NCBI GenBank assembly: GCA_006503475.1
Contig: RSEH01000169.1
Span: forward strand, 43,469-107,468
Reading direction: 5' to 3'
From: Stentor roeselii
Lineage: Eukaryota > Ciliophora > Heterotrichea > Heterotrichida > Stentoridae
DNA length: 64,000 nt
This document shows, in pieces, positions 3,059-64,000 of this stretch; position 1 is the first letter of the stretch; each line of letters starts with the position of its first letter. The position numbers were made by a program, and so were the translations under genes. Below the pieces are notes generated by a model. That model was not told the DNA's origin and ran no database searches. It worked only from the letters and a program-made list of their open reading frames with translations.

Positions 3059-4579
3059 ATGAATTTAGACCTCCCTTGCTACAAAAACCCTTCAGCCCTT
3101 GTTTCTCTTCAAATCTCCAACCGTCGGAAAAGTGACTTGGCAGGTCTTGAGCGGTATAAAAACCTGGTACTTTTTACTTAGACAGAGTTGGACATTTCAG
3201 GTAATCTTCTGACATCAACAGTTTCTGAGTTATTCTCTTTAAAATTCCTAAAAAAACTGAACCTTTGTGATAATCAAATCTCTTCCCTTTACCCTCTTCC
3301 CCGTCAGTTAGAAAGTCTGAACCTCAGCGAAAACCTTCTTGACAACCTTGATGAAAACCTTGTGTCGCTAACCTCTCTTCATACTCTTGATATTTCTTTT
3401 AACCGGCTGGAATCTATTGAATCGCTTTCTAGTCTTTCAAAGCTGAAATGTCTTTATGTTAACAACAACAAACTAAGAACACTTTCTGGAATTGAGCATC
3501 TTCATAATTTGATTGAACTTGACCTGAGCGACAACCAGTTGAAAACCGCTGAAAACATTCAAGCACTGAACATAAACTCCAGTCTAGTAGTAATCAACAT
3601 CGAAAACAACCCAGTCACCCTTTTATTCCAGTCAACATTCGCATTTACCTCAGCCGAGGAGTTCCCAAAAGACTTTTTCGAGATCTCACTAGGTCTTTAC
3701 TTCCGCTCACCAGAGAAACTTCGAAAAATAAAATCAAGTCGTTATCGAAGTGTGATCAAAGAATACAAAAACAAGGAAAAATTGCACTACGCAAGTCCCG
3801 ACTGGGGCAACTCAAAAATCGAAGACGACCTAAACGAAGATGAAAGCTTTGACGAAAGGATTCAAGACGAAATGCTGAAAACTTCCCAAGATGCAGAAAA
3901 TGAAGAAATTTTCGGTAAAAGAGTTGTAAATATCGCAAAACTCGACTTGGAAAAAATTAGTGAAAAAAATTACTGTGGAAAGTCTTCAACTAAGCCTGAA
4001 AGCAGCCTCGAGGCTTTATTTGAAGAACTTATCAGCTACTGTCAACTTGAAGAAAATAAAGACTCTCATTTTTCTTGTGATAAATACGAAAACGCTATAA
4101 ATGTCTTGAAAGGAAGGGAAAATGAACGACTCGGTCTTGTGAAAAGTTATGAAAAAGGCCGAAATGAACTGGAAAGTATCAAAAGTCAGGTGATTAAAGT
4201 AAAAGAAGAAAATGAAGAGCTATTAAAAAATATTGAAAACTTAAAAAATGAACTAAATAAACAAGATTTAGCGATTTTTAATCTGATGAACCGTCAAATG
4301 ACTAACGTCGAGGTGCAGACTGAGCCATATGAAGAGCATTTTTTAAGTGATTCTACCTTGGAAAGTGGACTCAGCTCTTTCAGTCAACTTCCTGATTTTA
4401 ATGCAGAGTATTCCCGACATGTTGGAGGCACCGAGTACATGGTGCACAATCAAATCGGTCTTTACGTGCAGAAGTTACTTGACAAGATCTCTGATTTAGT
4501 TAAAAAGAAGAAAAAGTTAAGAGATGAGAATAAAAAATTGAGTAATATCCTCAGAATTCAAAGAAATCATGTAAGTTAA
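3059..4579 (+). CDS. Leucine-rich repeat plus coiled-coil protein (one 15-nt intron)
   Basis: 501 aa after removing the intron at 3167-3181. Splicing joins a 36-codon first exon ending in KNL to TELDISGNLL, which restores a perfect LRR and brings in the upstream ATG at 3059. Residues about 35-170 are SDS22-type LRRs (LKKLNLCDNQISSL, LHTLDISFNRLESI, LKCLYVNNNKLRTL, LIELDLSDNQLKTA) followed by an LRR-cap-like segment; residues about 300-500 are predicted coiled coil rich in E/K. LRR-then-coil architecture occurs in centriolar and axonemal proteins such as LRRCC1 or CEP97, so a cytoskeletal role is likely but the orthologue is unresolved. Confidence 0.85.
3167..3181 (+). other. 15-nt intron (phase 0)
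   Basis: GTACTTTTTACTTAG. Contains an in-frame TAG as its last three bases if retained. Removal joins an LRR across the exon boundary. A at position 10 is a candidate branch point. Confidence 0.9.
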
Positions 4580-4644
4580 TTAAGATAGAGTTTCTTGTAG
4601 TTTTAACCACTTTACATTAGATGATTTTTCTTTTCAAGTTATAA

Positions 4645-5136
4645 ATGTTAAACGATATTCAAGAACATAGAAAATCTCCAAACTTTCCGATGTTAGGGAA
4701 AAAGGCGAAAATCATTCATCATTCTTTGCTTTTCACTGAAAATCCTGAACTTAGATTTAACCCCAGGCTTAAAAAATCGACTCACAAGCTGAAAAACGTT
4801 GAAAGTCCTGAAGAAAACTTGGTTCAATCAAAGGATTTACCGAGTATTCCAGTTTATATGTCGAAATTACTTGCACGGACACCTTCGCCTCTTAAGTCGA
4901 CTCGATGTGCATTCAACAAAACTAAAAAAAACATGTTCATGCCTTTCAAGTTCTCGTCACCGGCGGAAGTCGCTTTGGAAAACACTAGAAAAACTAATAT
5001 TTTGATGACGAAAGTACTTTGTTCTACACTTAAGATTGAAAAAATCAACCAAAGAAGTGAAAGTCCTGTGGATAAAGTTAAGTTAACGCAATTTAACTTG
5101 AGGCTTTCGAAATTAATTACTCGTTTGGATAACTGA
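4645..5136 (+). CDS. Small basic hypothetical protein
   Basis: 163 aa, Lys/Arg/Ser/Pro rich, with several SP/TP sites (ARTPSPLKS, SPVDK) that could be proline-directed phosphorylation sites. No recognisable domain, signal peptide or membrane segment. It begins at an ATG 65 nt after the LRR gene stop and ends in TGA. Codon use resembles the neighbours and there is no competing ORF of similar quality, so it is probably a real ciliate-specific gene; function unknown. Confidence 0.6.
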   Translation: MLNDIQEHRKSPNFPMLGKKAKIIHHSLLFTENPELRFNPRLKKSTHKLKNVESPEENLVQSKDLPSIPVYMSKLLARTPSPLKSTRCAFNKTKKNMFMPFKFSSPAEVALENTRKTNILMTKVLCSTLKIEKINQRSESPVDKVKLTQFNLRLSKLITRLDN

Positions 5137-15724: not shown

Positions 15725-17812
15725 TTACCCTTTCTTTACTATCAACTCATTCTTAGCCTTAGCCTTTCCAAGTCCTTTTTTCAGCCCTTCAAATTTTTCC
15801 TTAATCTGAATCAAATTTTCCAAGGATCTCTTTTTATTTTCCTCTTCCTCAACCAAAACATCTTCAAGCCTATAAAACCGATCCCCTCGAGATTCTTTCG
15901 AAATTTCAACATTTCCTTTCAATTCCTTTACTTCCTATTCCATACCTTTTTCTTCCATTTGTAAAATTTCCACTCTTATCTCTTCAATCATATTCAAGAA
16001 AACCTTCTCATCATGTTCTCCTAAATTATAAGTTTTCTGCATATTTTTTACAATTTTTTCAATTTCCAGTTCCTCTAAAGTCTTGCTAAGGAAAAAATTC
16101 TTACTTTTAAGGGATAAGTACTCAGAATGAAGTTCTTCGAATTTTGCATTTTCCACTTTTCGAACTTCTTCGAGTTTTTCACTTTGTTTTGAAACTTTCA
16201 TTAAAAGTTCTTCCTTTTCTTTAATAGTCTGAACTTTCATGGACTCCAGTTGTGCCAATGAACTTTTATTTAAATTTATTGAAGCAAGTTGCATTTTTAC
16301 TCTTTTAGGTTCAATTTTGGCTTGGTTATCTGCGTTATTTTTTAGGTTTTTACCGATCATTTGTAAGAATTTTGCCCCGACAAGGTTGAGTTCTAGTCCT
16401 AGCTTGATGATGTTTGAATGAACACGAGTTGCTTCACAGAGCTCTTCAGCAGCCGAGTCTTTAATTTCATTTTCTCTTAAATTCAACTCAACTAAACTTT
16501 GATTGGATGTCAAAGCCTCAGCCAGACTTTTCGCTCCAGGATTTTTGATCTTATTCCTAGAAAAGTTCAAACATCGAAGAATATGATTTTTTATCAAAAC
16601 CTTGCAAAAAGGAACAACTGATCGACAATCAAGAGAATTGCTCGAAAGGTTTAAAGATTCCAGTCCTTTATTTTTAAGAAGAATTTGGCACAAGGTGTTA
16701 ATCGACTGTTGTTTCAATGAGCAGTCACTTAAATTGAGTTCTTTTAAACAATAGTTATTTTCCAAGGCATAAGACGTTTCTTCAGAGATGTATTTCAATG
16801 GGTTACAAGACAAGTCCAGTCGTTTCAAGTGAAAGTTGCTGTAAAGTGACGCGAAAAGAGCCTTTGAACCTTTAAGGCTAATCGAGTTGTTTTTCAATGA
16901 GAGCTGTTCTAAGATACAGTCATTCGCCACCATATCTGAAATCGTCAAAGCTCCATCATTTCCAATAACATTATCTGAAAGGTTCAAAATAAGCAGATTC
17001 GATGAAAACACTGACCCAATCAACACTAAAACATCTTGAGGACTCAACATATTTCCTCCAATATTTAAACTTACAAGACTCTTGCAAACTTTTAACCCTT
17101 TTCCAAGCTCTGATACTGCTTCACTTAAAAAAGTTCCATAAAGGTTCAAAACTCCAATTATCGGGTTACAGGTCAAGTAAACTTCTAACTCAACACCTCC
17201 TTGCTTTCCCAGTTTATTCCGATTTAATGCAACTTCAGATGACAGGTTTAAACTTGCAATTGACTCATGAAGTCGAAGAGTTCTTAAGATGTAACTACAG
17301 CCTTCTGCTGAGATTCCATTATTTGAAAGATCGAGATGGACTATCGTAGTTGAAAAAATCAGACCTTTCAACAAGTTGATTGAACCTTCAATTCCCAAGT
17401 TATTTCTTCCAAGTTTAACATAAGCAAAAAACTTATTTTTCTTCAATATTTCAGCTAAAACTCTTCCAGAATTAACCCCAAGGCTAAATTCTGTAAGTTT
17501 TAATTCTCTGGCTAGAAAGTGAGTCGAACAAAAAGTCAAAAATTTTGACTTGTGGCCTTGTTGAGCTGATATTTGAAGATCTGAACATTTTGCTTGATAT
17601 AATTGTTCAAGTTGAGAGTTTGTTATGCCTGGTACCAGCTGGCTTGATATTGATATATTGCGAAATTTCGACCTTGAACGATTGATGCATCGAGAAAAGG
17701 ACTCGTTTGGTTTTGATGATTTCGGACGATTGGATGAAGAACGAGTCAGTTTGTTACTGAAAAAACTTTCAAGTTTGTCCCAGGACTTTTGAATAGATTT
17801 ATTAAGTTTCAT
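15725..17812 (-). CDS. RNI-type leucine-rich repeat plus coiled-coil protein (one 15-nt intron)
   Basis: 690 aa after removing the intron at 15931-15945. Residues about 75-480 are ribonuclease-inhibitor-type LRRs (LLILNLSDNVIGNDGA, LKRLDLSCNPL, LKELNLSDCSLKQQS, LESLNLSSNSLD, LRCLNFSRNKIKNPGA, LVELNLRENEIKDSAA). The remainder, continuing through the second exon, is coiled coil. LRR-RI followed by coil is the layout of LRRC45-like centrosome-linker proteins and some ciliary DRC5-like proteins; which one is not resolved. Without splicing the frame would stop at EEKGME; with splicing it continues EEKVKELKG. The N-terminus is Ser/Arg-rich and likely disordered. Confidence 0.85.
15931..15945 (-). 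other. 15-nt intron (phase 1)
   Basis: Coding-strand sequence GTATGGAATAGGAAG. Retention gives an in-frame TAG at intron positions 9-11, overlapping the conserved A10. Ends in AAG rather than TAG. Confidence 0.8.
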
Positions 17813-24798: not shown

Positions 24799-25368
24799 AT
24801 GGAACCAAAAAGGTATTTTTTTTCAAAAGTCAGCAAAAGAGAAACTCTTATAAAAAACAAGCAGATTCCAATAAAAACCGTTAAAATTGGTTTAGTTTTA
24901 CCTCAAATGGCTAAAATCTATGGAATTTCTCGTAATATTTCTTTGAATTCCCCTCCTTTTCTAGTAAAAAAGCCAGTATCATTATCTCCAATCGCAAGTC
25001 GCAAAAACTCAGACCCCCGGTCCCAATCCTTAAAACAAGTGAAAACTCCGACCTTCTCCCAAATCCGAATGAATAAAAAATCAATTCCAACAACAAAATC
25101 AAACATTCGTTACCTAAAGCAAGACTTTGACGACCTCGAAGTACTAAACAACATAAAAACCCCTGAAGAAAGTTTGAAAAACACTAAAAATTTAGCCTTA
25201 AACGATTTACATATCCCTGATTTCGATGAAATTCTTACAAGGTGTAAAACCCAAGCAAGAAAATCAAGGAAAAATCTTCCAAGAGCCTTTGAATCTCCAA
25301 GATCTCCAAAAAAATCCTTAGAAAATCTCGAAGTTCACATCGCGAACCGAGACACATCAGAAGAATGA
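24799..25368 (+). CDS. Basic hypothetical protein with SP/TP sites
   Basis: 189 aa, Lys/Arg/Ser rich, with proline-directed sites (VKTPTFSQ, IKTPEES, ESPRSPKKS). No domain recognised. Begins at ATG immediately after the tandem repeat and stops with TGA 14 nt from the end of the convergent phosphodiesterase gene. Composition matches other small basic proteins in the window (4645-5136, 56073-56744). Likely real, function unknown. Confidence 0.6.
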   Translation: MEPKRYFFSKVSKRETLIKNKQIPIKTVKIGLVLPQMAKIYGISRNISLNSPPFLVKKPVSLSPIASRKNSDPRSQSLKQVKTPTFSQIRMNKKSIPTTKSNIRYLKQDFDDLEVLNNIKTPEESLKNTKNLALNDLHIPDFDEILTRCKTQARKSRKNLPRAFESPRSPKKSLENLEVHIANRDTSEE

Positions 25369-25382
25369 CTGTTTTATTAACA

Positions 25383-27575
25383 CTAAAAATGCGAATTCCT
25401 TTTTTTCGCTTGAAAAAAGTCGAAAGCTCCAAGATTTACAATTTCAGTGGCCTGTCTGTTTTTTTTCTTACTTTCCCAATAACTCAAGTTACGTTTTAGT
25501 TGGTTCAAAACAACGTCTTCAATGATTTCTGAATTGAGAAACCCGGACCAGATCTCAAAAAGTGGAAGGCAGATGTTTTTCAAGAAGCCAATTTGAGTCT
25601 TGCTGAAATCAGCGGTTTCCCTGTCGCAATACATGGAAACAGAGAAGTTGTTTTGCTTTTCCAGGTCTCCTTGAGTGAAGAATTCGTCCATGATGAGCTG
25701 GCTCCAAATAGTGTGTAACTCGACGTCTTTGGCGCAGTGAGAAACGTCTGCGCATTTTAAAGCCATTGCAAGTATGCAGGCCTTGTCGTCGATTATGTTG
25801 AAGTCTAAGTCTGATAAGAGGATTGCTCTTGTTTTGAATTTGGCTAGAACGTCAAAATGCTTCGACATGTCTGTTTCGAGGATCATTGAAATTATTAACT
25901 TTCTTAGAGTTAACCAGTCTTCTGACTTGAAACAGGAAAAAATGTCAGTTTTTGGCTTGGATCCTAATGTGAATGTTAAGGAACAGTGCATGTTTTCTAA
26001 TACGCTGGAATCGTTGTATTCTAGGGAAAATGGATGTCTTGTGTTTATTAGGTATCTGTTTGTTAGACCTGGATGGCCTACGTCGTGTCCTAGGGCTGAG
26101 ATTATTACGGAGAAGAAGTCAAGGGAGGTTAGATGCTTGTAGAGAGAGGAGTTTGAAAGGTAAAATATTAGAGAATGGAGCACGTCTGATGCGTGGCAGG
26201 CATTATGATAAGCATTGTTATGGTAAGACTATATGATATTTACCTTTTCCAGCTCAGCGAAATATTTTCCCGCATTTTTTGCACTGATACCAAGAAGGCC
26301 AGTAATATCCCACTTATTCAACAAATACTTGCTAATCGGCGGAATTGTCAATCCAACAGTTTCATGTAAAAAAAATATATTAAAAGACCAATTTTTTCCA
26401 AAAGTCGCTAATAAACTATCAAGTTCCGACAATTCCAACATACTCGGCTGGACAATCGTTTCAGAAATCAAAGAATATCTTCTTTCAGGGCCTTTTAAAT
26501 GTTCAATCTGCATGAAATTTTCACGAATAAAAGCTTGATCCTCAAAATCAATACCAGGGTTGAGTTCGACTTTATTATTATCAAAAGCTCCTAAAGCAAG
26601 TTTTTTCTTTATTTTATCAAGTTCAGTTAAACTTTCTTTCAACAATTTTTTCACGTCTTTGAAAATAACAACTCGACTAACTTTTTTCAAATTACTGGAA
26701 ATAATAGAGCAAGTGCTTAGAACATATTCAGCTTCTGTGTTGATTCCACTCATTAAAAAACTTTCATTTTTGCGAGTTTGGCTTAATTCATTACTTTCTT
26801 CTTTTTCCCTGCGAATGAAGATCTGTTTAATGCGGAGGTCGCATCGGTAACAGTCAGTGATTTGAATGATGTTGAATAGAAAAATGACTGCGCATTCACT
26901 GAAGATTTCATATGAGTTGTACCCTGATATTGCAAGATTAGAGGTGGTGAAAAGGATGGAATTTACCATCCCGATTATGAGAATGTATAAGAAATGGTCG
27001 AATAGAACGTAACGGATCATTACTATGCCTGAAAGTAAACCTAAAGAGAGGGGAAGATCGCTTGATGAGGCGGATTCACCTGTCATTTGATTTAGAATTC
27101 GATTTCTGCATAGGATTTCGTAGATACTCATTGAAAGACATAGACCTAGAAAGATTTCACGGGTTTTTGAACGGGTTTTGTGGGATTTACAGAGAATTAT
27201 TGCTGAGCATATGCTCAAGGTCAGTAGTGTTAGTAAAATGATTAGATGGATCTTCAGGTGGCTACTGGATAATGAACCTGAATGGAAAAAAAGGAGTGAA
27301 AATGTTAGGAGGATCAGAATGTAGCTAATGGTGAACACAAAGAAATATATCATATTCGATTTGAATTCTTCAGAAAGTTCATTCGAATCACTATCCAAAT
27401 ACAAAGCAGTTATCAATTTCTCTCTTTTCTGATATTCCGTGAATCTAAGTAGCGAGTAATCAACAGGCAAGCTTTTATATTCATACTTTTCATGTCCTCT
27501 TAACTGATAAACCGCAGATCTTGAATTAGCAACAAGATTATCACTTTCAATAGCAATAGACTTAAGTTTTTTCAT
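25383..27575 (-). CDS. Membrane-bound class I cyclic-nucleotide phosphodiesterase (one 15-nt intron)
   Basis: 725 aa after removal of the intron at 26229-26243. The N-terminal half has about six hydrophobic helices (residues about 70-230; MIYFFVFTISYILILLTFSL is the first), then a helical linker, then a PDEase catalytic domain. The splice restores the first metal-binding motif YHNNAYHNACHASDVLHSL, split by the intron just before it. Also visible: the HD motif ALGHDVGHPGLTN and the ALKCADVSHCAKD Asp. All metal ligands (H, H, D, D) appear present, so activity is expected. Multi-TM PDEs are typical of protists. cAMP or cGMP preference cannot be read from sequence. Confidence 0.9.
26229..26243 (-). 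other. 15-nt intron (phase 0) in PDE gene
   Basis: Coding strand GTAAATATCATATAG; final TAG is an in-frame stop if retained. Joins ELEK to SYHNNAYHNACHASD, rebuilding the catalytic HD motif. Confidence 0.95.
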
Positions 27576-27704
27576 ATTATTTCCTTAAACCTAAACATTA
27601 GAAACCCATTTATTCTAAAACCTTCAATTTTTAATTAAAATGCCAAAAATAACTCATTCCTCTAGTTTTCCCTTCTTAAAATATGAAGCCACGTGTGAAT
27701 ATAA

Positions 27705-43295: not shown

Positions 43296-44456
43296 TTAGC
43301 AGTTATGATGCTTGTTAAATGCAAAATAAGCTGTAAACATGCTTTCCCCGTGGTCTTCTTTGAACTCAGTAATCGAGCGATCCAGGTGAAGCTCTTTCAG
43401 AGAATTATACGACTTGGGCTCATCTTCACATTTCGAAAAAGCCTCATAACTTTGCTTGCTGAAGATTTGTTTAAATGATGTCAAGTGACTTTTGTCTTCT
43501 TGCTTCAAGTCAGTAATCAGTGAATTAGAGTTTGAATGCTCGTCCATCATTGTGAAAATTGAGTTTGACAAGTAGGAGTGGTCTGATGGCTCGTTGAATA
43601 TAGTACCGACTGGCTTCCAGATGTAGTACATTTGCCATGGTACTGGACATTCTAAACTTAGATGCACATCTCCAATAGTAATTTTCTCATGATTCCTGCT
43701 ATACTCAATAAGTTTCCCTTCCCACTGCGCAAGTAACGTAATAGTATACTCAGCCTGTGAATTTTCAATAAAAGCAGGGTTAAACTTATTCTTAAGATGT
43801 TCAATAATTTCAACCAACATTCGATTAGACCGAGTATAAAGTTCAATCCTCGGGTTAAACCCCTGCCTTACAAGCGCCTTATGAAAATAAGAATTCAAAG
43901 GCAAAAGTTGAACAACAAGTGAATCAGGTACGCCTCTAAGTATTTCTTACTTCAACATAAAAGTGCTTCCCCATTTCTTCCTAGCCTTTCCACAGAACTG
44001 ACAAGTGATTTCTCCTTCAGTGGCAGGCTTCAATAAGGACTGTATTCCTAAAAGACTTTTATTCTTAGGTCGAGAGTTCATCGCGATTTCCAAGGCTTTC
44101 ATGCAGTTCTAATTGAAACTTACTGTGAATAAAACTCGATTTTTTGACATGTTTCTGACTTCTTTCTTTAGTTGAGGAATGTTTGACCCTGAAATCATCT
44201 CAAAGTTGCCGTTTTCGAAGATCTTCTGCTCTGGGATGCCTTGTTCTAAGTTAAAACCTGCTGAATCACAGGCTTTCTTCACTGTGATTATTGCCTTGTA
44301 GTATAGGTTTTTTATCTTTTCAGTACTTTCTCTGCCTAACGTCTTCCTGAATTGGCTTAAAAGGGCCTGAAGAGCTTTCTGGTCGGATTCTGCTGCGATG
44401 CACGCGTAAAAACCTTGTTTTTCTTTTTCGCTCCAATTCCTCCAAATGTCCACCAT
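43296..44456 (-). CDS. Cramped-like chromatin protein (two 15-nt introns)
   Basis: 376 aa after removing introns 44109-44123 and 43936-43950. The N-terminal ~75 residues (WRNWSEKEKQGFYACI onward, with LYYKAIITVKKACDSAGF) resemble the SANT-like helix bundle of CRAMP1/cramped and plant TKI1. A CxxC (TCQFCGK, about 147-150) follows. The third block, VQLLPLNSYFHKALVRQGFNP with ELYTRSNRMLVEIIEHLKNKF, and the closing TIGDVHLSLECPVPWQMYYIW match the conserved C-terminal block of that family (xLxLxP, NPxLEL, ADVY). Animal family members regulate histone genes. Only splicing makes one continuous protein; each intron carries a stop. Confidence 0.65.
43936..43950 (-). other. 15-nt intron (phase 2)
   Basis: Coding strand GTAAGAAATACTTAG. 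Retention gives TAA at intron positions 2-4. Joins ..TFML(K) to GVPDSLVVQLLP. Confidence 0.88.
44109..44123 (-). other. 15-nt intron (phase 0)
   Basis: Coding strand GTAAGTTTCAATTAG. Retention gives the terminal TAG in frame. Joins RVLFT to NCMKALEIAM. Confidence 0.88.
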
Positions 44457-45219: not shown

Positions 45220-45955
45220 ATGGGTGTTGTCTGCAGTTCAAGAACAGTAAAGGAAAAAGAAAGAGTATCAGTTATTTAGAAACTTGATAATTATGACTTA
45301 AGTGATAATCAATTTAGATCATTTGGAAAAAAAATATCTTGTAGGAGTTCTCAATTCTTCAAACATTTCTCAAAATGTCTTTACTCTTGATGAAAGAAAC
45401 CCACCTCATTTGCTAGCCATCACCGATCTGACTTGTATTCCAAAAATAGTCTACATGAGAAACAACATCATCAATGAATTCGAAATAGGAATGATAGTCG
45501 ACCATGAAAAATTTCGAATAGGCAAACGAAAAAAGCACGAGTCAACATCTCAATCAAGAATCATCTTCTCAAACGACGAGCACATCTTAAAAGTCGAGGT
45601 GGACTACGACGATCGCTCAATTCTAGGAGTAAGAATCAGTACAAACGAGCAAATAATCGCATTAGGACCCAATCACGAATCCGAATTTTTCACAGAGTAT
45701 TCAGTATCCGACAACTGCACAGCAATAATCGGCTTTCACATGGTTTACAGTCAAGACCGCATAGTCGAGATCTCTCTTTTAGAAGCCCCTTTAAAAAAAA
45801 AAACTCAAAATGAACCTCGGCCTTCAAGTCAATTCTTTGAAAGGTTTAACACCCACTTCGGACAAAAGTCTTCACAAAAGCCAAAAGGAGAAAAAGACGA
45901 GGTGAAGTCAACTTTTAAATTATATAAAAGACTGAAAAAAAACCAGTCATTTTAA
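45220..45955 (+). CDS. Dual-lipidated protein with lectin-like beta domain (two introns, second uncertain)
   Basis: 234 aa if introns 45265-45279 (15 nt) and 45302-45317 (16 nt) are removed. The N-terminus then reads MGVVCSSRTVKEKER: Gly2 for myristoylation and Cys5 for palmitoylation. Exon 3 is beta-rich: a repeated pattern of hydrophobic strands (LKVEVDYDDRSILGVRISTN, AIIGFHMVYSQDRIVEISLL) faintly resembles a jacalin-type fold, but this is weak. Basic C-terminus. Without the introns the longest frame starts at a GTG, which is why I prefer the spliced model. It precedes the Aurora-like kinase by 37 nt. Confidence 0.6.
45265..45279 (+). other. 15-nt intron (phase 0)
   Basis: GTATCAGTTATTTAG; terminal TAG is in frame if retained. 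Confidence 0.75.
45302..45317 (+). other. Probable 16-nt intron with GTG start
   Basis: GTGATAATCAATTTAG. Needed to bring the ATG exon into the frame of the main exon. Third base is G, unlike the other eleven introns, so this one is the least certain. Confidence 0.5.
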
Positions 45956-45992: not shown

Positions 45993-48203
45993 ATGTCGCG
46001 AAAAAATTTTAGTAAAATTCTCTTCGAGTCGCCTTCGGTCTTATCGGGAGAAGAACAGGAAATCAAAAAAAGTGACTTTGAGTTTGAGAAAAAACTTGGG
46101 GATGGAGCGTTTGGACATGTTTGGAAAGTTTGTCACCGCGTCACGAAACAGGTGTTCGCATTGAAGCAGGTTGCAAAAGAGAAGGTTATGAAAATGCAGA
46201 ACCAGTTTAAACGTGAGGTTTATATTATGTACAACTTGAATCATCCGCATATTGCTAAACTATTCAATCACTTTGAAGACGAGAAGTCCTTTTATTTGAT
46301 TTTAGAATTCGCTGAAGGCGGCAACTTGTTTCACAGGCTTCATCGACAGAAACATTTTCTGGAATGCGAAGCTGCTCAATATTTTAGAGAAGTCATTTCA
46401 GCAGTTGATTACTTGCACAGTCATCAGCCGGCCATCATTCATCGAGATATCAAGCCTGAGAATATCTTGCTTGATAAGGATGGACGAGTCAAACTCACGG
46501 ACTTTGGATGGTCGAACTATTTTGGAGAAGAGGTCGAACCCAGGACTACTATTTGTGGAACGCCTGAGTACTTGCCACCTGAAATGGTGGAACATCGGAT
46601 TCATGACACTTCTGCTGATATTTGGTGTCTTGGGGTTCTGTTATACGAAATGCTTGTAGGTCATACCCCATTCAAATCCCAAGCAAAGAAAAACATGTTA
46701 ATCAACATCTCAATGTGCAAGCCTAAATTCCCTCTAAGCTTCCCTCCCCTAGCCCGAGACCTGATCAGTAAGATGTTATTAAAATCCACATCAGAAAGAT
46801 TAAAAATCTCAGAAATCACGAGCCACGCCTGGATATCATCAATATCTCCAATGAAAGAGACCTTTTCCTTAAAATACTCTCAAATCCCTCTTCCCTCCTA
46901 CCACGGTAAAGCCTAATCAGACAGTGTTCCAGTAGAATTTAAATGTTACAAAGTCATCGGTGAGAAAAAAGAAGCAGAAAAAATCAGTCTCATCATTTCT
47001 CCCGACAATAAAAGCACCAACAACACGACTGAAGTCAAATCCGGGCAAGAGTCCTCCAACATCTCCAACATTTCACTCACTGACTCCGATATCTCCCTTT
47101 CTTTCTCCGACTCCATCAAAGGCGCTGAAGAAAGCGCTTGTCGAGAGTCGTTAAGAAACCTTGTCGGCAATATCGAACAACATCAGGCAAACATCAGAGC
47201 AAATAAAAATAACATCAAAAGTGTCGAACATTGCATTAAAGAACAACTCGAAATCATTAAAAAACTTGAAAATTCTGCGAAAGTCAAACAAGACCAAATT
47301 GGAAAAATTGAAAATGACTCAAAAGTCATTCAAGACCAAATCGCGGACTCTGATTTAGAAATTCAAAATTTGTTTTTATTTGATGATAAAGATTCTTATA
47401 AAACAAAAATTAACTCTTTACAAGAAAATTTCAATAAAAACTCTATAGTTTCAAGGAAATTAAAAGAAAATCTGGAAATTTTAAAAGGAAAAATCAAGGA
47501 GTCTGAAAATATCTCTGCGCAAAAAATGAAAGAACTGAAAAATTTAAATGAATTTTTAAATGCGGTTAAAAGTGAAGTGCAAAAAGCTCATAAAATCATT
47601 CCGAAAGTACCTGTCAGGCCTGTTTCAAGTAAAAATTTTTCAGTTTCTTCAGAACTTCGAGAAGATATCAAGAAAAAAATAAAGGAAACTATTGGAAAAG
47701 TCATCACTTCTGATGAAGCTGAAGAAATTTTAGGAAAAATTAAGAACTCGATTAGAAATGTTAATTTAAAGCAGTCAGTCATTGAAAATCAAATGATTGA
47801 ATTAAAAACTAATTTTGAAGAGGAAAAATTTAGTCTGCTTGTCGAGGCGAAGATGAAAAAAGAAAAAATCATTCAAAAAATCAAGGAAAATAATGAAAAA
47901 ATCACTTCTGGGTTCTATGAAAGTTCGAAAGTGCTGAAAGATGAGTTAAGAGAAGATCTAAAACTTGCCCGGGTGTCGCAAATGAGATTTCCTTTTACCC
48001 AAGGCGAGTTTGACAGAGTATTCCAGAAGTTTTTCGTATTTTTTAAATAGACTTTGAAAAACATAAGGGTAAAGATTTACAACGACATCAAAAAGAAGAG
48101 AATCGAGCACTTTGAACTCCGAGACAAGAGACGAAAGAAGTACTCACAGATAAAAGGCCTTAAAGATGAAATCGCTATTTTAATTAATTTACTTGAACAT
48201 TAA
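45993..48203 (+). CDS. Aurora-like kinase with long coiled-coil tail (two 15-nt introns)
   Basis: 726 aa after removing introns 46906-46920 and 48036-48050. Kinase domain at about 27-285: GDGAFG, ALKQVAK, HRDIKPENILL, TDFGWS and TICGTPEYLPPE. DFGWS is the Aurora signature, and the activation-loop Thr is in RTTICGTPEY. From about 310 a Ser/Thr-rich linker leads to ~380 residues of coiled coil ending in a basic tail. Canonical Auroras end soon after the kinase domain, so the tail is unusual and probably a localisation module. Introns are proved by frame: each removes a stop and the downstream frame stays coding. Convergent with the USP-like gene, 17 nt apart. Confidence 0.85.
46906..46920 (+). 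other. 15-nt intron (phase 1)
   Basis: GTAAAGCCTAATCAG. Retention gives TAA at intron positions 9-11, over the conserved A10. Separates the kinase from its coiled-coil tail. Confidence 0.88.
48036..48050 (+). other. 15-nt intron (phase 0)
   Basis: GTATTTTTTAAATAG. Terminal TAG in frame if retained. The 50-residue exon after it is basic and coiled. Confidence 0.85.
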
Positions 48204-48220: not shown

Positions 48221-51200
48221 TCACGATTTTCCTGTGATTTCATTGAAAAATCTAAGTTTTTCATTAGATTTAAAGTAAAGGGTTGACCCACTGTTGTAGA
48301 TTATTTGATGATCTTCAATGTTCTGATGTGGTTTTTTCAGGTGTTTCGAAGTCGGGTCTTTTAGGTATTTTTTTGACTTGTCTTTGATGATTTTCAGTTT
48401 TTTTTTCAAGGTTTTCAGGTCGAAACAACTGATAAAATTTTCAGATTTTTTCATTTTTCCTGTTGCTTTAAACAACTCTTTCACGACCTTTCCTTCCATC
48501 CTTAAGAAATCCAGACAGTCCTCATTTACCTCCACAGCCAAAACAACAACTTCTAGAACTGGGAAGAGGTCTTTATTGCTTTGTTTGCAAAAAAAGATGA
48601 AGTCTTTTAACTTGTTCATGACTGTTCTCATCAAAGCATCTCTTTTGGAAATCATGAGAATTCCGAGGATTTGAAGGAAAAAAGTGTCTTTTTGATCTTT
48701 TGTGATAGCTTCGAAGAGATATTCGATGAAAATGTCAGAGATTATCTCGTTTTTTAGTAATACAAATGTTTTTCCTAACTCAACTGCCGTCAAAAAATCG
48801 TGTTTTAAGTGAATTACAAGAGAAATAAAATCGTGGTCTGAAAGCAACTGAAGCATTTCTAAGGAAAAAGTCTTGTAAAATAAGAGAAATGATAGAAGCA
48901 GGTACTCTGGTAGTTCTTTTTTTGGGTAGCATTGAGAAATTGAATTAAAAAGAACTGCTTCTGCTCCTTGCTCTTGTGCAAGGGCTGGACTTAATTTACA
49001 GAGCTTAAAAATTACCTCAAAAATTAGGCAGGAATTGAATTTTTCATTTTTTTTCAACTCTTCGAGGATGTAACGAAGGTATCCTGTGCAAACTGAAGGT
49101 CGGGACTGTTGAATCGCAAGAGTGATCAAATCATTCGCCATCTGAGCCTTGATTTTATCATTTAAACCAGTCAAAACCTGAGTCATAACCAGATCCTTTA
49201 AAGTTTCGAGCAAAACCTCACTTTTCCTAAACTCATCCGATCGAACTTTTGGCATCAATCTCAAAAAAAACTTGAAAACATTTTGCAAATCATTAATTCT
49301 CAAAACACTACAAAAGAAATAAAAATAACAAAATTTCAAAATTTTCAAAGAATTCGAATCAATCAAGTTCAAAACGAATTCCTGAAACTCATAAGACATA
49401 TAAAAGTAACTTTTGACCAAATCAACATTCATCCAATTTTCTTCAATCCTCGAAATTCTATTATTACTTGATTTATTAAAAATCAAGACACAAGCAGTAT
49501 TAGTCTTTGTACAAATTTCACTCTGTTGACGAATTCCAAACAAATCTTTAACAAATTCATTATCTTTCATCATTTTCAGGTCTGAGTCCCTAGCCTGCAT
49601 CCAGGATCCTTCAACTTTGCAATAAGAAGCGAAAGAATTAATAGAACTATCAAAACTGATGATTCCAGTCAATTCATATTTCAAGTTTGTCTGACAATTC
49701 ACATGTTTGAACTTTTTCAAGTCGATGTTTAAGTCGAACTCGTATAAAACTCGATTAAAAATCGGGATTTGTGATGAAAGTTTCACTTGATTTAGTCTTT
49801 CTATTAAAATTGTAAGGATTTCAGGACTTTTATAGAGATATCTGTGACTTTGAATGAAATTCATTGTGCCACATTTTTCGCATTCTATTTGTTTTGTTTC
49901 TAACTGGAAGATATTCTCTAAACTTTCAAGTAAATCTTTATAACCAGGGCGAATGGAGAGGTACTTGAAAGGCAAAACTTCTCGACTTTCGATGTGTTCA
50001 CATCCTTTTGTTTTATGATTTTCATTTAAAATCTGACCGACCATTGGAAAGTTAGAACTTTCTCTTTTTAACTGCTGAACAACGACTTTGAAGTAAGAAC
50101 AAAGATCTGTTGGCTTATCAAGAGAAAATTCAGAGATTTTTTCAATTATTTCGTAAAAAGTGTCTGGTTTGAATAAAGATGTTGAGTTTTTTTCGAGTCT
50201 TCGGAAGATTTTTTGGACTTGGAATGAAAAAGAATCGGGTTGATAAAGATTTGAAAAAAGTAACTTTCGGATACTTGACTGGAAAAACAACTGATGGAGA
50301 ATCACGTTTAAATAAGGGTTTAAAAAGGACTTGCAAAAACGCACTAATGAAAAAGAACCGAAAAATAAGGAGTCTGAAGATGTTGAATAATTGTTTTGAA
50401 GGGATGAATGGCAGGAAATTTCTAAATGTGGTAAAATCATTAGTTTTTTTTGCTCTGATGTGAAAGTGAAAAGACTTTTCAAGTAGTTTAAAAGATTTTT
50501 CCTTGTTTTTTTGGATTTTAGGAAAAAAACTGAACTGAGGATTGAAGAAAGAATGAAGTTCAGGTCGTTTTCTGATAAAGAGAAATTTTTGGATTCTAGA
50601 AGGTTTAAAAGACCTGAAACAATTTTTTTTCTTTGAGAGATGAGCCCGTCTTTTAATATAGAAAGAAGGATTTGGTGGTAATCTGAAGACTCAGAAAGTT
50701 GAAGAAAACGTTTCAGGTAAATAAAAAGCTCGTTTTTTATACTGGGTGAACTTTTGTAATGAAGTAAATCTTGCAGAATATATCTAAGAGTTAAATCTAG
50801 GACTTTCTGACTTTTTTCAGCAAGTTCTACAAAATAATTTAACACCTGGACTGAAATCTTCGTATTTTGCCCTAAAAATCCGATATTTTCCCAAAACTTA
50901 AGAAAAAAAACAGAATCTTGGCAAAAATCTTCATAAAAATCGATTCGAAATTCTTTAATAATAAAAAAAATCTCAATCACAATTCCTTCAACATCCACTT
51001 CAGACAGTGAAACAAAACAAATCGCTAAAAAAATCCTTCGAATCAGTGACTCCGAAACTAAAAACTGAAATTTTTGCATTAATTTCAAGGAAATAACTAA
51101 AAAATCCTTGTTAAATTCCACATCATTCCAGGAATTTTCATTAAAAATACTAATCAAAAAAGTAACTCCTCCTTTTTCTAAGAACTTTTCCAGCCATTTT

Positions 51201-53743
51201 TCATCATTCATGAAATTTTCAATGATTTTTATCTGAAAAGCAAAAGTAAAAAAAGTCGATTTAACAATATCTCTGACATCATCATCTAAAACAAGTAGTT
51301 TATGAAAAGCGAATTCACTAAAAGGAATAGCAGTTAAAACATCAAAAGCGATTTTCGAGTACTCCTGTTCTTCATTCAAAACCTGAAGTAAAAACTTCTG
51401 AATCTCAAAAGAACCCGTGAAAAATTCTTCAATAGTTAAAAGTTGTTTAGTTTCATTTTCAAAGTCAATTAAAATCGTGTTCTGATTGAGAAACTTGACC
51501 CTAACATCATCTTCATACCTTCCATACCTTGAGTCATCACAAAGAAAAACCGTGTTCCAATAATTTCTGCCGTATTTACTCGCCACTTTCTTTTTAAGAC
51601 TTCTAACATCTGAGCACTGGTCAATATAAACCTCGTTAAACTGTTCTTCTTGAAACTTGTAAAGAAAAAACAAGAGTCCATATCCAGAGTCTTCAGCAGG
51701 TCTAATGAAACTTTTAATCATTTTTAACACCCTGGGTTTTGTCAGGGTGTTGCAGTTTCGAAGCACTAAAGAAAAAAAATCTTCCCAAATATTTTTCCTG
51801 CTGTTGTCAAGATTTTCTCCTAACTTCAAATGAAGATTAACCAGGATTTCACAGCCTTCTAAAAAAATCAAATCATTGCAGTTCAAAGTAAGTTCAACTA
51901 AAGTGTCAGTATTTCTAAGTAACTTCTGAAGCCTCATCAAAAAACAACTTTTTTTCAATTCAATGCAACGATCATAACTATTAATCAAAAGATAAATCCT
52001 CAAAAAGCACCTAAATGAAAAAATAGACCAACTCTGAAAATCACTGCAAGTTAAGAAATGCTTTACAAAGATCTTCTCAGTTACATCAGGTGCAAAAAAA
52101 ACGATGCACTTTTCCATCCAGTCTAAAAAAGCATCTTCATTTGCAGAGTTTTTAAGAAAAAGAAACAAATCAGAAAACATTTTTTTACTGATTTTTTTTG
52201 AATATTTTACATAAATTTCAAGGTACTTTAGAAGAAACTGGATTTTTTCTCGACTTTCATAAACTGAATCTTCTTGATTTTTGATGTAGCCGATGGTGGA
52301 CAATGCAGACTTTTCTGATAAGTGATGTTTGAAGTTTGTATTAAGTCTATCAAGGTCAACTAAAAGTCTCGCATTTTGAACGATGTTGACTCCTTTTTCT
52401 ATTTTATGAATATGGTCGATTATTTCATTTGTTACTTTCGGGTTTATTGAATACCTGTGATATAACTTGCTTAGTATCAAAATTCCTAAGTTATTATAAG
52501 TCACGTCATCGCAATTCAACAAGTCATCAAAGAAGTCACGGTTGAATTCATAGTAGTTAAACTCAAAAGACTCAAAAATATTTTCTGTGAACTGAGTCGC
52601 GAAAAGCACTTCTTCGAAAGAACCTCGAGAAAAAGAGTCGAAAATTGTTGTAATTCCGGATTTTGACAGCTTTTTACAGGTCATTAAAAGGTACTCGGCG
52701 ACGGAGGCGCCGATGATGTCAGAAGAAATTGCTTTGTAGATTTCTTTTACCTGGTCGCAGTTTAAACTTGAAGTCATTTGGATGAGGACTGGTTGGAAGA
52801 TGGAGAAGATTTCTAAGTCGTTTGAATGCAAAACGACGTTTAATGCTTGGCTTTCACAGATTTGCTTTATCAGGTCTTTGTTCTTGTCAACTAAGGATTT
52901 TAACTTGCTTAGGGCTTGCTTTATCATGAAAGTTGACCCTGATGAAAGTACTTCTTCTATCAGCTTCATACGTAACTTGCTGCAAGAGGAGAGAATTTCG
53001 ATTTCTTCGCTTTTTTCGTAGACCTCGTATACTGAGTCGAAGTTTATGCCGTCCATGTTTCTTTCACTGAAAACTGTGAGTTTCACTGAGAGCAGGTCAA
53101 GAAACTTCTCCATAAAATCATCAAGAAAGGGCTTTTGAACAAACTTCAGCATAGAAAACATATGAAAATCAAGAATCAGTTCCATACACGCTCTAATTAA
53201 AATTTACTCAGATAGCAAAATCTTATAAAACAATTCAAAACCTTTCATTTTTCCAAACAAGTTGATGAAAAATAAAGTCAAACCATTCGAAGTCGACTTC
53301 AAAATCGACCCTTCCCAAGGTTTAAACTCTTTTTTCGGAGAGAATTTTTTACATGTCTCATGAAACGTGAAGTGAAAATCATCCAATCCTGAAACCATCA
53401 AATTAACCTTCGCAAAGCACTGTAAAGTTGAATAGTTTAAAATATCAGAAACATTTGGAATAGAAACATTTTTTGCCCATTCTAAAAAATATTGAATGAC
53501 TTCTGAGAAGAATTTTATTATTTCCAGGTTTTCTTGCTTTTTATAGCTGCCTTGCAACACCTTGTATATAAAAAGTCGGATTTTTGAGAGGAACACGTCG
53601 GCTGACTCGTCGAGACGAGATAAGTGGAACTTTAACCTTGTTAGGTATAAGTCTAGGTCGTTTGAGTTGAATTTCCAGTTGTTTTGGCTACTGTTGTCTA
53701 AGATTTCTAAGGACTTGTTTGCTTCTCTTGAGGAATTTACCAT
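48221..53743 (-). CDS. Giant USP9X/USP34-type ubiquitin-hydrolase homologue, active site degenerate (one 15-nt intron)
   Basis: 1,835 aa after removing intron 53193-53207. The first ~950 residues are helical, armadillo/HEAT-like, as in USP9X, USP24 and USP34. The C19 domain follows: the Cys box reads LNPYLNVILHQLFFQ, aligning with NTCYMNSVLQQLF, so the nucleophile is Pro (codon 50315-50317). One zinc-finger Cys pair (CEKCG) remains of two. The LPFKYLSI, LTILIERLNQ and YELTGIISF strands are clear. The His box GHY is replaced by FASY. Fold recognisable, catalytic Cys and His lost. The C-terminal ~500 residues are again helical. A ubiquitin-binding or scaffold pseudoenzyme is inferred. Confidence 0.75.
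53193..53207 (-). other. 15-nt intron (phase 2)
   Basis: Coding strand GTAAATTTTAATTAG. Retention gives TAA at positions 2-4. Joins ..KILLSE to ACMELILDF. Confidence 0.9.
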
Positions 53744-54122: not shown

Positions 54123-55235
54123 TTAATCATCATCTTCCTGAATCGCATCAAGTGGGTCATAAGGTTGGTATTCCTCGTCTTGTCCAATCATAGAAAGAGG
54201 ATCATCAGTCTTGGAGTTAGGTTTGTTCTCTGAAGAAACATTAAAGTCCCAGCTGTCTGACTCTGAATTAAGTCTTTCTCTGTTTGTGCAGAGTAAAGAG
54301 TTTCTGGGAATGTTTATCATGTGCTCCAGTGGCGGCAAACGGGTTACTAGATGCTCTCTGATGTAATCGCTTCCCCTCGCTTTATGAAAAAATCTTTTCT
54401 TAAGCAAGATTTCAGCTGTTGGACGCTTTTCTGGGTCTTTTTGAAGACAGGAGTTTACTAGGTCTTTGAAGGAATTGTCGAATGGCTCGTCTCGGCCTAG
54501 GACTGGAGGGTCCGAGTTCTTAACAAGTAAAATAATCTTCATAGGAGTATGATCAATAAAAGGCGGAACCCCTTTAGCAATTTCAATCCCAGTGATTCCA
54601 AAGCTCCAAATATCCGCTTTAAAATTATACCCACTTCCACTTCCACTTTCCATAACCTCCGGTGCCATCCAACACGGACTTCCAGTTAAAGTCTTCGCAG
54701 TTTTTCCAACCCTTAGACTAGAAGAAACTCCAAAATCCGCCAAATAAATATTTCCTTGTCCATCCATCAAAATATTCCCGGCTTTGACATCCCTATGAAT
54801 TTGCCCTTCTTGGTGAAAGTAAGCCAAAGCCATAAGGACTTCCTGCAAAATAGAAGCAATAAGTACTTCATCTTTCAGACCATCTCTAAACATGAACCTT
54901 AAAATGTTTCCAATGGATCCACAGTCCATAAGAGGCATGACCATCCAAAGCTGAGTTTTCGAAATGAAGCAGACATGATAATGAATGATATTCGGATGTG
55001 AAGAAAGTTTCATTATTTGGATTTCTTTTCGGATTTCTTCCAGGTTCTTGTCTTGGAAATGCTCCAACTCGATTATTTTTATTGCGACTTTTTCTTGGTT
55101 ATGTGGACCTTCCATCACGTAGGCCCAATGCACCTAGATAAAGCGTACGACTCCGAATGTGCCGTAACCGATTTGGCTACCCAGCTGGTAGGCTGATGAG
55201 GACAAAGGCCAATCTGTGTAGGTATGGCCGCTCAT
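54123..55235 (-). CDS. STE20/OSR1-SPAK-like kinase (one 15-nt intron)
   Basis: 365 aa after removing intron 55134-55148. Splicing joins IGYGTFGVV to HWAYVMEG, completing the glycine loop. Other motifs: VAIKIIEL, HRDVKAGNILM, ADFGVSSSL, TGSPCWMAPEVM and the acidic tail with SESDSWDFNV. The TGSPCWMAPE substrate-anchor motif and HRDVKAGNIL are characteristic of OSR1/SPAK/FRAY kinases, which control cation-chloride cotransport. A C-terminal CCT domain is not seen. The ATG at 55235 gives an N-terminus of MSGHTYTDWP, as expected before the kinase. Confidence 0.85.
55134..55148 (-). other. 15-nt intron (phase 0)
   Basis: Coding strand GTACGCTTTATCTAG. Terminal TAG in frame if retained; removal reconstructs the kinase glycine loop. 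Confidence 0.95.
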
Positions 55236-57742: not shown

Positions 57743-57776
57743 TATAACAGTCGGGTGATTCAATAATTGGAGAATT

Positions 57777-59366: not shown

Positions 59367-59408
59367 AACTTTAATCTTAGAATTCATTAAAATCATCTTT
59401 TTACATTT

Positions 59409-60749: not shown

Positions 60750-62315
60750 GTGGTGCTTGGTTAGGTTATCAGAGTTTAGAGATAATTGATGAGTTTTAAT
60801 TGTGGAGATTTTTAGTGATTAGTTAATGTTGTTTAGTTGGGGAAAATAGTCGATTTTTATAATTTTGGTTTTTTGAAGTTTGTTTTAGTTGAACTTTCTA
60901 ATATTATCTTATTTTAATAGACCAAATTTATCACTGAAAATTTGATTTAGTTTTATTATTAATATTTTACAATCTTTAGCAAAGGAATTTTTTTAATTAT
61001 AATTATTATTAAAGTTATGAACTGAAAGTTAAGGAAATTAATATTGATATGTTTGATACACTTATTGATTTTTTAGTTACTTTTAAATATTTGTGATTTT
61101 ATTCTGATTTTATATATTATGCTTTTTAGCTCTGGAAAATCATGATGCTAAAATATAATTGGAAACTGATATTACTTTATAATTAATTCGCTTAATCTGG
61201 ATAATTATTTAAAGATAACTCTAAATACAACACCTAAATCATTTGATTTAATTGAAGATATTAGACAATTATTCACTTGTGACAATTAGATATATTCAGG
61301 GATATTATAATTCATTTATTAAAACTAATCTTTTCTTTTGATGCAAGATTATAAACATTACATTTCCGCACGTTGCCAAGTGGCCATAAATTTTCAATCT
61401 ATTTGCAGCGGATTGTTAAATGCTTGGTTTAAAAAACATTTGAACTGTGTTTCACTCAAAGTTGAAACTGATCAGCTTTTCTAGATGAGTTGCTAGTTTA
61501 TTGGGTACTCTGCTAGTCTTCTTTGTCTTGATCTTTTATATTATATTGATTTATGCAGGTTTATTAACCCTTGTAGAATTAATCCATGATTTTTTACGGT
61601 TATTAGTTTAATATGGAGAATTAAAATTTTAGTTGAATAGGTTTTTATTGTAGTTTATATGTTATTACAATTATTTTTAGTTGAAGGAATATTTTGATGT
61701 TTCTGCTTCTTTACAAAGTTCTGTTACAGAGATCATTTTTTTTCTTGAATTATTTAAGTTTTTTTCCATGTAGTTTAAAGTTTCCTGATCCAGGTATTCA
61801 ATTAGTGTTTTATCTAGACAGCCTTTTCCAATTTTCAACAAATTGGTTTGATCTAAAACAAATAAACCTTAAAACATGCCTCTATCACATACTTGAATAC
61901 TAATAAGGAAAATTCTTAAATACGAGTAAAAATAAGCACAATATTTTATTTATTAATGAAGAAAATTCCTGAATCCAGGGTTTACAAGTGACTGGGTTTC
62001 TTATAGAGAGGATTCAATGTATATATTTTAAGTTCATATAAGATTCCTATTTTTTTTTTATAAATTAATTTCCTCAAGCCATTAAACTAATAAAACTGCT
62101 ACTCAATAAATAAACACTTTAAAATTTTTAAAAGAACCAAGAAACAATAAATTATAATTCTTGATATTTTATAATATTCAACTAAAATTTATTCTTAAAG
62201 CCTTAATTACTAAAGTTAAAACTACTCTGCCCTTATTTTACTTAATCTTAATTACTCTGCATATCACCCTGTTAACAAATATAACCACAATCTAATTGAT
62301 TAAATTTATTCTATT
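60750..62315. other. AT-rich intergenic region
   Basis: 1.57 kb. The first ~130 nt are a G-rich trailer. A GC-richer island at 61367-61415 can fold with TCCGC pairing to GCGGA and an inner GCC/GGC hairpin. A 69-codon frame from 61694 is Phe/Leu-rich and unconvincing. Confidence 0.5.
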
Positions 62316-64000
62316 CTAAATATTCTTCATACTATCATAAACATTTGACAATGCCTTTTTAAAAGGAAGTTTTTTCCCAAACCAAATAACGACAGCTCCA
62401 ATTTTCATCATTTGTTCCTGAAACTTACCTCTAGTCAATTCATCTTCCTTAACCATCTCATCTTTCACATCACTCTTCAATTCATCATCATTTGCCAAGA
62501 CATAAAGTTTGATCTTATTTTCACGAATCAATACCAAGTCAGCAGGAGTGCAGCATCCATTTCCATTAAGTTCAGAAATAATAACAAGCATAATTCTTCT
62601 AGTTTGATCTTGTTCATCTTCAAAGCAATTAATTGAATTAATAATCAAATCATAAGTTGACTCATTTTTTTCAATTTCCTTCGCAGCCAAGATGAGATTT
62701 TCAAGGTCTCTATCAGGCATATCACGTGAAAAAGCTTTCATTTTAAGTCTAGGATTCAGATTTGAAGTAACAGCGCCGATTTTCCACTTTTTCTTGAGTT
62801 TCACTTCGATGAAGTTGATGAGGTCTTCTGAGAGTTTAATGTTGTTGGTTAAGTTGAATGCCAAGACGATGACTAAAGAATTTTCAATGGCTTTTAAACT
62901 GTTGTTCATTTCGATTAGCTCTGGATTTTCTTTTAAAAGTCCGAATTTTTCAAATAAGTTGAAAAGTGACTTGACTGCCAGTTTTCTGATGTTCGGGTCG
63001 AAGTACTGTCCTTTTTCCTATTTTTTTATTACTATTGCGAGAGTGAAGGCTATAGCGGCTTCATCGTTTTTTTCGTTTTCAAGAAGTAGAAGTCCTCGTC
63101 GATAGTGCATCATTTGGGAAAGGATGTCTTTTTCATATGTGATGTTTCTTACGTCGAAATGTAAGCTTTTTTTGTACTCTTCGTCGATTTTTATGTTGAC
63201 TCCTACTCGAGATAGTCTTGTTATGTCGATGTCGATTTGAGTACCGCTGTCGAGGTCTAGTTTACGGAGTTCATCGTGAACGATGTCTAAAAGCTCGATT
63301 CCTGAATGGTAATATTTTAGCTCTTGAAAGACACCTGCGATGTCTATCATTACTTTTAATAGTCTTAGATAATGCTTTCTGCTTGATGCGTAGTAGTTTA
63401 ATATCTCTTGTTGGTATTTGTATATTTCCTTTAGTCTTGCTCGCTTTTCAGTCATTTCGAAAGCGGATTCGTTTAGTTCTGCTTGGAGACCCATGCAGAG
63501 CTGTTGTTTGCGGTCAATTATGCTTTCCTGCAAAAACTGCTTCTCACTCTCCCAATTTAATGAATCCTTCCCTGCTATTTTCTTAAGGATAGACTTTTCT
63601 TTTTCACTCAATTTGCTTTCATTCTCCTCTTGTTCGCTCACTTCATTAGCCAGTATTTCCATTTCATCTAAAGAATCCTTGTAATATTTAACCGCTTGGT
63701 TATAATCTTTGTTTAAATAGCAGATATTTCCAAGAAGGTTGTTGATAATCGCTTTTCCCCTATGATTTTTTATTTCAACAAAAAGTTTCAGGGCTTCTTT
63801 CAAGTTATTTTCACGAATTTCTAACTTGGGGTTATTAAGAAAGCTGGGTTCAATCATTCTTTCTAAAGTTTCGAGGAGCCTGAGATAAGACAAGATTTGA
63901 TTAACTTCTTTATTGTACTTTCGGTCCATAGCTTGAAGACTGAGCTTGCCTCGAAGGTACTGTTCAAACAAGTAAATCGGGTGAGTGATTTTGTCAGTGA
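62316..64000 (-). CDS. TPR plus vWA-like protein, 5'-truncated by window edge (one 15-nt intron)
   Basis: The frame stays open to the right edge, so the start is missing; about 556 codons are visible. Intron 63018-63032 joins ..AFTLAI to EKGQYFDPNIRK. The first exon has TPR-like helices (AIINNLLGNICYLNKDYNQA VKYYKDSL region, and LKYYHSGIELLDIVHDELRK). The second exon, NNSLKAIENSLVIVLAFNLT onward with IMLVIISELNGNG, is reminiscent of a von Willebrand A fold, without a clear MIDAS DxSxS. Ends in TAG at 62316. A scaffold with repeats and a binding domain is inferred. Confidence 0.7.
63018..63032 (-). other. 15-nt intron (phase 0)
   Basis: Coding strand GTAATAAAAAAATAG. Terminal TAG in frame if retained. 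Confidence 0.88.

Follow-up and report, generated by a model that had tools for sequence, protein, structure and literature searches.

The 64,000-nt stretch of the Stentor roeselii genome analyzed here (C81:43469-107468; hereafter the window) contains LRR-like, cyclic-nucleotide phosphodiesterase, protein-kinase, and TPR genes interrupted by very short introns, mostly of 15 nt. A sequence-only reading had described eleven such introns, with phases 0/1/2 represented 7/2/2 times, and had proposed that each carries a stop codon placed according to its phase, as a result of selection for detection of unspliced transcripts by nonsense-mediated decay (NMD). All eleven were independently recovered by a gene finder using a hand-set intron matrix (at position 13: T 0.37, C 0.30, A 0.30), and in 11/11 the GTA start, the A at position 10 (A10), the AG end, and an internal stop in the intron's own phase are present. 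Homology searches covered 44,391,514 bases of the genome in 522 contigs.

The 15-nt introns and the genetic code

The bare motif GTAN6AN3AG occurs in the window 24 times against 23.5 expected, i.e., at the chance level, and hence the evidence for introns lies in their frame-bridging context. In 285 kb, 48 stop-bearing frame-bridging GT..AG candidates had the length of 15 nt, compared to 2–16 candidates at each of eighteen other lengths between 12 and 30 nt; five of the 48 bridges sit in loci recruited via the intron pattern, leaving 43. A stricter filter demanding flanks of 90 nt on both sides retained just 5 stop-bearing 15-nt introns and was then relaxed. In 264 kb, stop-bearing calls at 15 nt numbered 26, 5, and 18 in phases 0, 1, and 2, respectively, versus 0–7 calls, phases pooled, at the control lengths of 12, 14, 16, 17, 18, 21, 24, 27, and 30 nt. 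A10 was present in 65/68 gene-finder introns, where the scoring matrix itself favours it, and in 12/12 and 3/3 introns found by homology at two sites of the phosphodiesterase family (see below).

Excision of the intron at 55134 raised the Pfam score of the kinase domain from 197.8 to 203.0 bits, and splicing raised that of an acyltransferase from 42.1 to 46.9 bits. The score of the phosphodiesterase, with the intron at the domain edge, changed from 258.8 to 258.9 bits, and that of a PX domain, which begins past the intron site, from 44.7 to 45.1 bits, while the match of the PX gene to sorting nexin-24 improved from 28.3 to 31.1 bits. Two more retained/spliced pairs had no Pfam family above the cut-off. 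A candidate intron in a dual-specificity phosphatase, splicing of which lowered the score from 81.1 to 78.0 bits, was rejected as coding. As expected of introns bearing TAG or TAA stops, 12/135 scored kinase-domain matches contained stops (10 TAG, 3 TAA, and no TGA); stop-free introns are invisible in such a table.

The intron at 45265 is workable only jointly with the 16-nt intron that follows it, and the gene finder limited to 15-nt introns kept 10/11 of the set and lost the gene at 45220-45955. Overall, 79 introns were called at 15 nt and 3 at 16 nt; the latter seem to be rarer here (3/82 calls) than the 7% published for S. coeruleus.

Table. Short introns of the window (positions within the 64,000-nt stretch).
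Position	Strand	Feature	Gene and remarks
3167..3181	+	15-nt intron, phase 0, terminal TAG in frame	LRR-like gene 3059-4579
15931..15945	-	15-nt intron, phase 1, TAG at positions 9-11	LRR-like gene 15725-17812
16037..16051	-	Probable stop-free 15-nt intron GTAAAAAATATGCAG, phase 0, CAG end	Called by the gene finder; class excess of phase-0 stop-free CAG calls; protein without domain
25369..25383	-	Possible 12th stop-bearing 15-nt intron, phase 2, GTGTTAATAAAACAG	Close to the 3' end of the gene; weak
26229..26243	-	15-nt intron, phase 0, TAG	Cyclic-nucleotide phosphodiesterase gene 25335-27575; site common to 12 sequenced paralogues
43936..43950	-	15-nt intron, phase 2, TAA at positions 2-4	Gene 43296-44456, without Pfam match
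44109..44123	-	15-nt intron, phase 0, TAG	Gene 43296-44456
45265..45279	+	15-nt intron, phase 0, TAG	Gene 45220-45955
45302..45317	+	16-nt intron GTGATAATCAATTTAG	Gene 45220-45955; 22 nt after intron 45265; frame restored
46906..46920	+	15-nt intron, phase 1, TAA at 9-11, CAG end	Protein-kinase gene 45993-48203
48036..48050	+	15-nt intron, phase 0, TAG	Protein-kinase gene 45993-48203
53193..53207	-	15-nt intron, phase 2, TAA at 2-4	Gene 48221-53743; alone among the eleven in having a stop in each frame
55134..55148	-	15-nt intron, phase 0, TAG	Within the kinase domain of gene 54123-55235
63018..63032	-	15-nt intron, phase 0, TAG	TPR gene 62316-63929

The genetic code is the standard one, as in Stentor. 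In Blepharisma, UGA is read as tryptophan (PMC9942806, cited from an excerpt); a code of this type was dropped here, since TGA is not a sense codon. When TGA is read as sense, long open reading frames (ORFs) barely lengthen, from 27,135 to 28,533 and from 12,972 to 12,993 bases, and the terminal stops of 25 long ORFs are TAA (13), TAG (10), and TGA (2). The GC content is 33.4%. Rare matches (C264:23975-24967 and C127:22111-22866) contain an in-frame TGA together with TAA; otherwise TGA is absent among stops inside domain matches.

Stop-bearing and stop-free introns

The sequence-only reading carried the caveat that introns found because they break frames would not include stop-free ones. This caveat was correct, and the window itself contains a probable stop-free intron at 16037-16051 (-). 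To estimate the stop-bearing share, introns were scored blindly to stops in 304 kb, comprising the window, the adjoining 40 kb, and 200 kb of contig C339, with nine wrong lengths serving as the control. There were 49 stop-bearing calls versus the control mean of 5.2, and 30 stop-free calls versus the control mean of 17.8 (range 12–24), yielding a corrected stop-bearing share of 0.78 (bootstrap 95% confidence interval, CI, 0.62–0.97). The share varied between 0.77 and 0.79 across four settings, being 0.77 with a looser intron prior and 0.79 with a stricter one. The net counts of stop-bearing and stop-free introns are 25.2 and 7.3 in phase 0, 2.9 and 3.1 in phase 1, and 15.7 and 1.8 in phase 2.

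The excess of stop-free calls is evident in phase 0, where 11 such calls with the CAG end compare to the control mean of 2.2. Shuffling of synonymous codons gave a similar picture for stop-free calls of phase 0 scoring above 7, with 12 observed versus 6.6 on average and at most 9 in the shuffles. The reverse held in phases 1 and 2, where shuffled sequences gave more calls than observed (14.3 versus 4 and 4.5 versus 2, respectively), and therefore the control lengths were used instead (phase 0: 12 versus the mean of 3.4).

Paralogues provide individual examples. An acyltransferase gene on C339 has the stop-free intron GTAAGTCTTAAACAG. A C46 paralogue with 64% identity lacks it exactly to the codon, and in a distant C94 paralogue GTAACATCAAATTAG occupies the corresponding position of the alignment. 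Paralogues thus confirm that stop-free 15-nt introns are real. At a second phase-0 site of the family, both paralogues possessing the intron have the TAG end. The acyltransferase introns GTAACATCAAATAAG (C339:152189-152203) and GTAACATCAAATTAG (L036, C94) are nearly identical, though they differ in place and phase, which may reflect chance or copied introns.

Hence, the apparent presence of a stop in all introns reflects ascertainment: the count of 11/11 depends on how the eleven were found, and about one fifth of introns have no in-phase stop. A further proposal, that a common consensus flags retention in any frame, also fails, since stops in all three frames occur in just 8/49 stop-bearing introns and in 1/11 of the original set.

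Phase dependence of the stop elements

Comparison with shuffled introns, suggested in the sequence-only reading, showed an excess of in-phase stops. The eleven observed compare to a mean of 5.83 for introns with random interiors (P for 11 = 0.0012) and 7.55 for shuffled phases (P = 0.0098), both figures leaving the discovery bias uncorrected. In the larger set, the phase-dependent element detected is T at position 13 (T13), which makes the 3' splice site of phase-0 introns TAG instead of CAG or AAG. After correction, T13 is present in 24.9/32.6 phase-0 introns (approximately 76%) versus 9.0/23.4 (38%) in phases 1 and 2 combined, the difference being 0.38 (CI 0.03–0.71). The raw counts are 26/41 and 14/38 (Fisher p = 0.025, and 0.015–0.044 over four settings comprising a neutral matrix and three priors), and stratification by the next exon base retains the effect (p = 0.018).

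A test of a different kind came from the phosphodiesterase family, whose spliced window protein (intron 26229-26243 removed) was compared with the whole genome by a homology search blind to stops. Among 56 matches, 14 hold an internal stop (11 TAG, 3 TAA). For the 33 best matches, we subtracted the tripled aligned span from the length of the match; 23/56 were omitted as too diverged, and 0/23 of these had a stop. The difference lay between -15 and +6 in 16 matches, none with a stop, and between +12 and +18 in 17 matches, 14 with a stop. In 90-base pieces of 16 paralogues, the site of the window intron (site 1) holds a 15-nt phase-0 intron in 11 cases and none in 5. Together with the window copy these make 12 introns, of which 11 end with TAG, and one, on C174, is stop-free and ends with CAG. 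The introns have diverged widely, their eight free positions agreeing on average at 3.5/8, and yet position 13 (11 T, 1 C) is the least variable of the non-invariant ones. At site 2, three paralogues, counted without C53 and C131, have a phase-1 15-nt intron within the tyrosine codon of the conserved YNDxSVLEN. One of these has TAA at positions 9-11, another at 6-8, the third is stop-free, and all three end with CAG. Thus, within the same family a phase-0 site has retained TAG despite its divergence, and a phase-1 site has CAG (T13 in 11/12 versus 0/3; Fisher p = 0.0088, uncorrected for ancestry). An own-phase stop is present in 13/15 of these introns, and in 1/15 if phases 0 and 1 are exchanged. 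In-frame stops therefore exceed the expectation from phase and composition, with moderate strength in the gene-finder set and with common ancestry in the paralogue set.

The T13 effect in the gene-finder set and the stop-blind paralogue test together make selection for a frame-matched stop likely. We consider it probable that these are ordinary spliceosomal 15-nt introns of a heterotrich with the standard code, in which selection keeps a stop in the frame actually read; presumably, this stop is read by NMD.

Several observations weigh against this interpretation. A purine at position 4, completing TAA or TAG at positions 2-4, is not phase-dependent, being present in 16/20 phase-2 calls and 41/54 others (p = 1.0); in the small sample from the gene finder, no dependence on phase is seen for TAR at positions 9-11 (R, purine) either (4/15 in phase 1 versus 12/59; p = 0.73). 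Permutation of phases over 74 calls, including stop-free false positives, yields 49 own-phase stops versus a mean of 42.7, with p = 0.040 only. The share of 0.78 may be somewhat high, depending on the sensitivity for stop-free introns. In the phosphodiesterase family, positions 3, 4, and 8 of site 1 are likewise fairly conserved, and reading of all introns in phase 2 gives a stop in 14/15, for which selection would have no use. Finally, the samples are small and not independent, as all 12 introns at site 1 share a single ancestral intron. The placement of stops by phase, as first proposed, is supported for the terminal TAG in phase 0 and not supported for the TAA at positions 2-4 in phase 2 or, in the small sample at hand, for the stop at positions 9-11 in phase 1.

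These points bear on an alternative requiring no selection on stops at all: the splice signals (GTAA, the TA-rich branch region, and YAG) hold stop-like triplets, and discovery by frame breaks does the rest. For phase 2 this account holds, as a reading of phase-0 introns in phase 2 meets a stop in 30/39 calls; the phase-2 stop, arising from GTAA as TAA at positions 2-4, is a by-product of the 5' splice site, free in every phase. The existence of stop-free introns and the caveat about frame breaks fit it as well. As an explanation of the whole pattern we regard it as unlikely, because T13 differs by phase after correction and the exchange of phases at the two phosphodiesterase sites reduces stops from 13/15 to 1/15. 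In addition, a phase-blind T13 frequency of 0.38 implies approximately 40 non-T phase-0 introns beside the approximately 25 with TAG, and approximately 8 were found.

A slightly less likely alternative is a ratchet of survivorship or intronization, in which stop-free 3n introns (those with length a multiple of three) can revert to exons by drift or vanish, while a stop locks splicing; the pattern would then reflect differential survival rather than selection for decay. It resembles the model of intronization in which 3n segments are fixed upon gaining a stop, there through NMD (PMC9612004, as excerpted). Such a ratchet accounts for both the 3n length and the stops, and at one site stop-free and stop-bearing introns do occur side by side (CAG on C174 versus 11 TAG). 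It is at odds with the fact that both families examined in this respect show the intron inserted into a conserved protein and not derived from an exon. In paralogues, precisely the five codons in question are missing within YHxNPYHN and YNDxSVLEN and ahead of SYKKK, so that exonization would break the motif.

Other families were less informative. PP2C was tried as a phase-1 test; by eye, in pieces of 12 paralogues, the site of the C339 intron was uninterrupted coding sequence or had no visible intron, and hence PP2C offers no such test. In the CDPK family, 7/96 rows had a stop, always TAG, and natural length variation hides stop-free introns. The Ste20 paralogues were too diverged for the length test.

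A long coiled-coil gene (L013-L014, C339:48214-56565) has seven stop-bearing 15-nt introns, all in phase 2, which have perhaps spread with internal repeats. In the window and C339, strong intron-like 15-mers (score >5) with the AAG end in coding phase 1 number 1 versus the control-length mean of 7.6, this being one of many cells compared; the deficit possibly reflects avoidance of cryptic 15-nt introns.

Translation, surveillance, and ciliate introns

If selection indeed maintains the frame-matched stop, the following chain of events would explain it. With five extra codons and no frameshift, a retained 15-nt intron would, given its 3n length, be translated silently. Provided that retention is frequent enough to matter, ribosomes would terminate inside the retained intron at the in-phase stop, NMD would then destroy the mRNA, and TAG would be kept in phase 0 owing to this decay. 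In phase 2, GTAA of the 5' site would provide the stop for free; a phase-1 intron would have to obtain it from a TAR spanning the branch-point A or from an adjacent codon.

The genome encodes proteins of the corresponding machinery. The UPF1 domain has 8 matches above the cut-off, with a clear UPF1 on C52; UPF3 and Mago have one match each above the cut-off, and UPF2 has one partial match above it, covering profile positions 81-132 of 133. The seven further matches to the UPF1 zinc-binding domain (C515, C90, C49, C505, C1) form an expanded UPF1-like family. The claim of selection for nonsense-mediated detection is thus upheld in part: stops match phase beyond a phase-blind pool, both in the gene-finder set and among the stop-blind paralogues, and UPF1, UPF2, UPF3, and Mago are encoded, while the phase-2 stop is a by-product and the phase-1 TAR does not depend on phase.

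The principle is known. According to excerpts of the papers cited here and below, in-frame stops in 3n introns as an alarm for NMD are established in Paramecium and reported in Nyctotherus and other ciliates (PMC11334263, PMC2633312, PMC5014332), and 3n introns are avoided in Paramecium, oligohymenophoreans, spirotrichs, and Loxodes (PMC5014332, PMC11334263, PMC11441545). In Paramecium, there is selection against translatable 3n introns (Jaillon et al., 2008, via PMC11334263 and PMC2633312), and those 3n introns that exist tend to carry in-frame stops, read there as visibility to NMD. Paramecium differs in that its introns are 20–34 nt long, 3n lengths are depleted, and TGA is the sole stop, whereas the present introns are almost all 15 nt long, hence 3n, and their stops are TAA or TAG lying within splice signals. 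Hence, the stop-based half of the Paramecium model holds in S. roeselii and the length-based half, the depletion of 3n lengths, does not. In Nyctotherus ovalis, in-frame stops are enriched among 3n introns, and just 3/40 stop-free introns are 3n; its introns differ in length (21–29 nt), the stops are not contained in a 15-nt consensus, and phase is unanalysed in that excerpt (PMC2633312).

Outside ciliates, a similar NMD argument has been made for Yarrowia lipolytica, where the 5' GTGAGT constitutes a phase-2 stop, and the branch-point motif with the TAG 3' site provides stops depending on phase and length. Its introns are longer and of mixed lengths, with TAG in approximately 10.5%, and dependence of the 3' site on phase is not examined in the part of the paper cited (PMC2911113).

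The closest likeness is to Stentor coeruleus, with introns of 15 nt (8173/8806), A10, GT-AG borders, AT-rich composition, and the standard code (PMC9505925); in heterotrichs, approximately 95% of introns are 15 nt long (PMC11441545). The terms "stop codon," "nonsense-mediated," "retention," and "frame" occur nowhere in the intron text of PMC9505925, and the genome paper (Slabodnick, 2017) may say more. Titles and abstract openings searched contain no report of in-phase stops in Stentor introns; we make no claim of a first report, as Slabodnick (2017) and Jaillon et al. (2008) lie outside that comparison. Apparently distinctive here are the almost uniformly 3n introns, the location of their stops within splice signals, and a 3' site that fits the phase.

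The balance tips modestly toward a 3' splice site set by phase in heterotrichs, with TAG where it is read as a stop, i.e., in phase 0, and CAG or AAG elsewhere. Translation would then shape the splice-site code, and fixed 15-nt introns would escape the ban on 3n lengths, since the splice signal is itself the alarm. It is a puzzle how nearly uniform 15-nt 3n introns remain visible to mRNA surveillance. A phase-matched stop within the splice signals would solve it, and predicts that the identity of the 3' splice site depends on phase across thousands of mapped introns.

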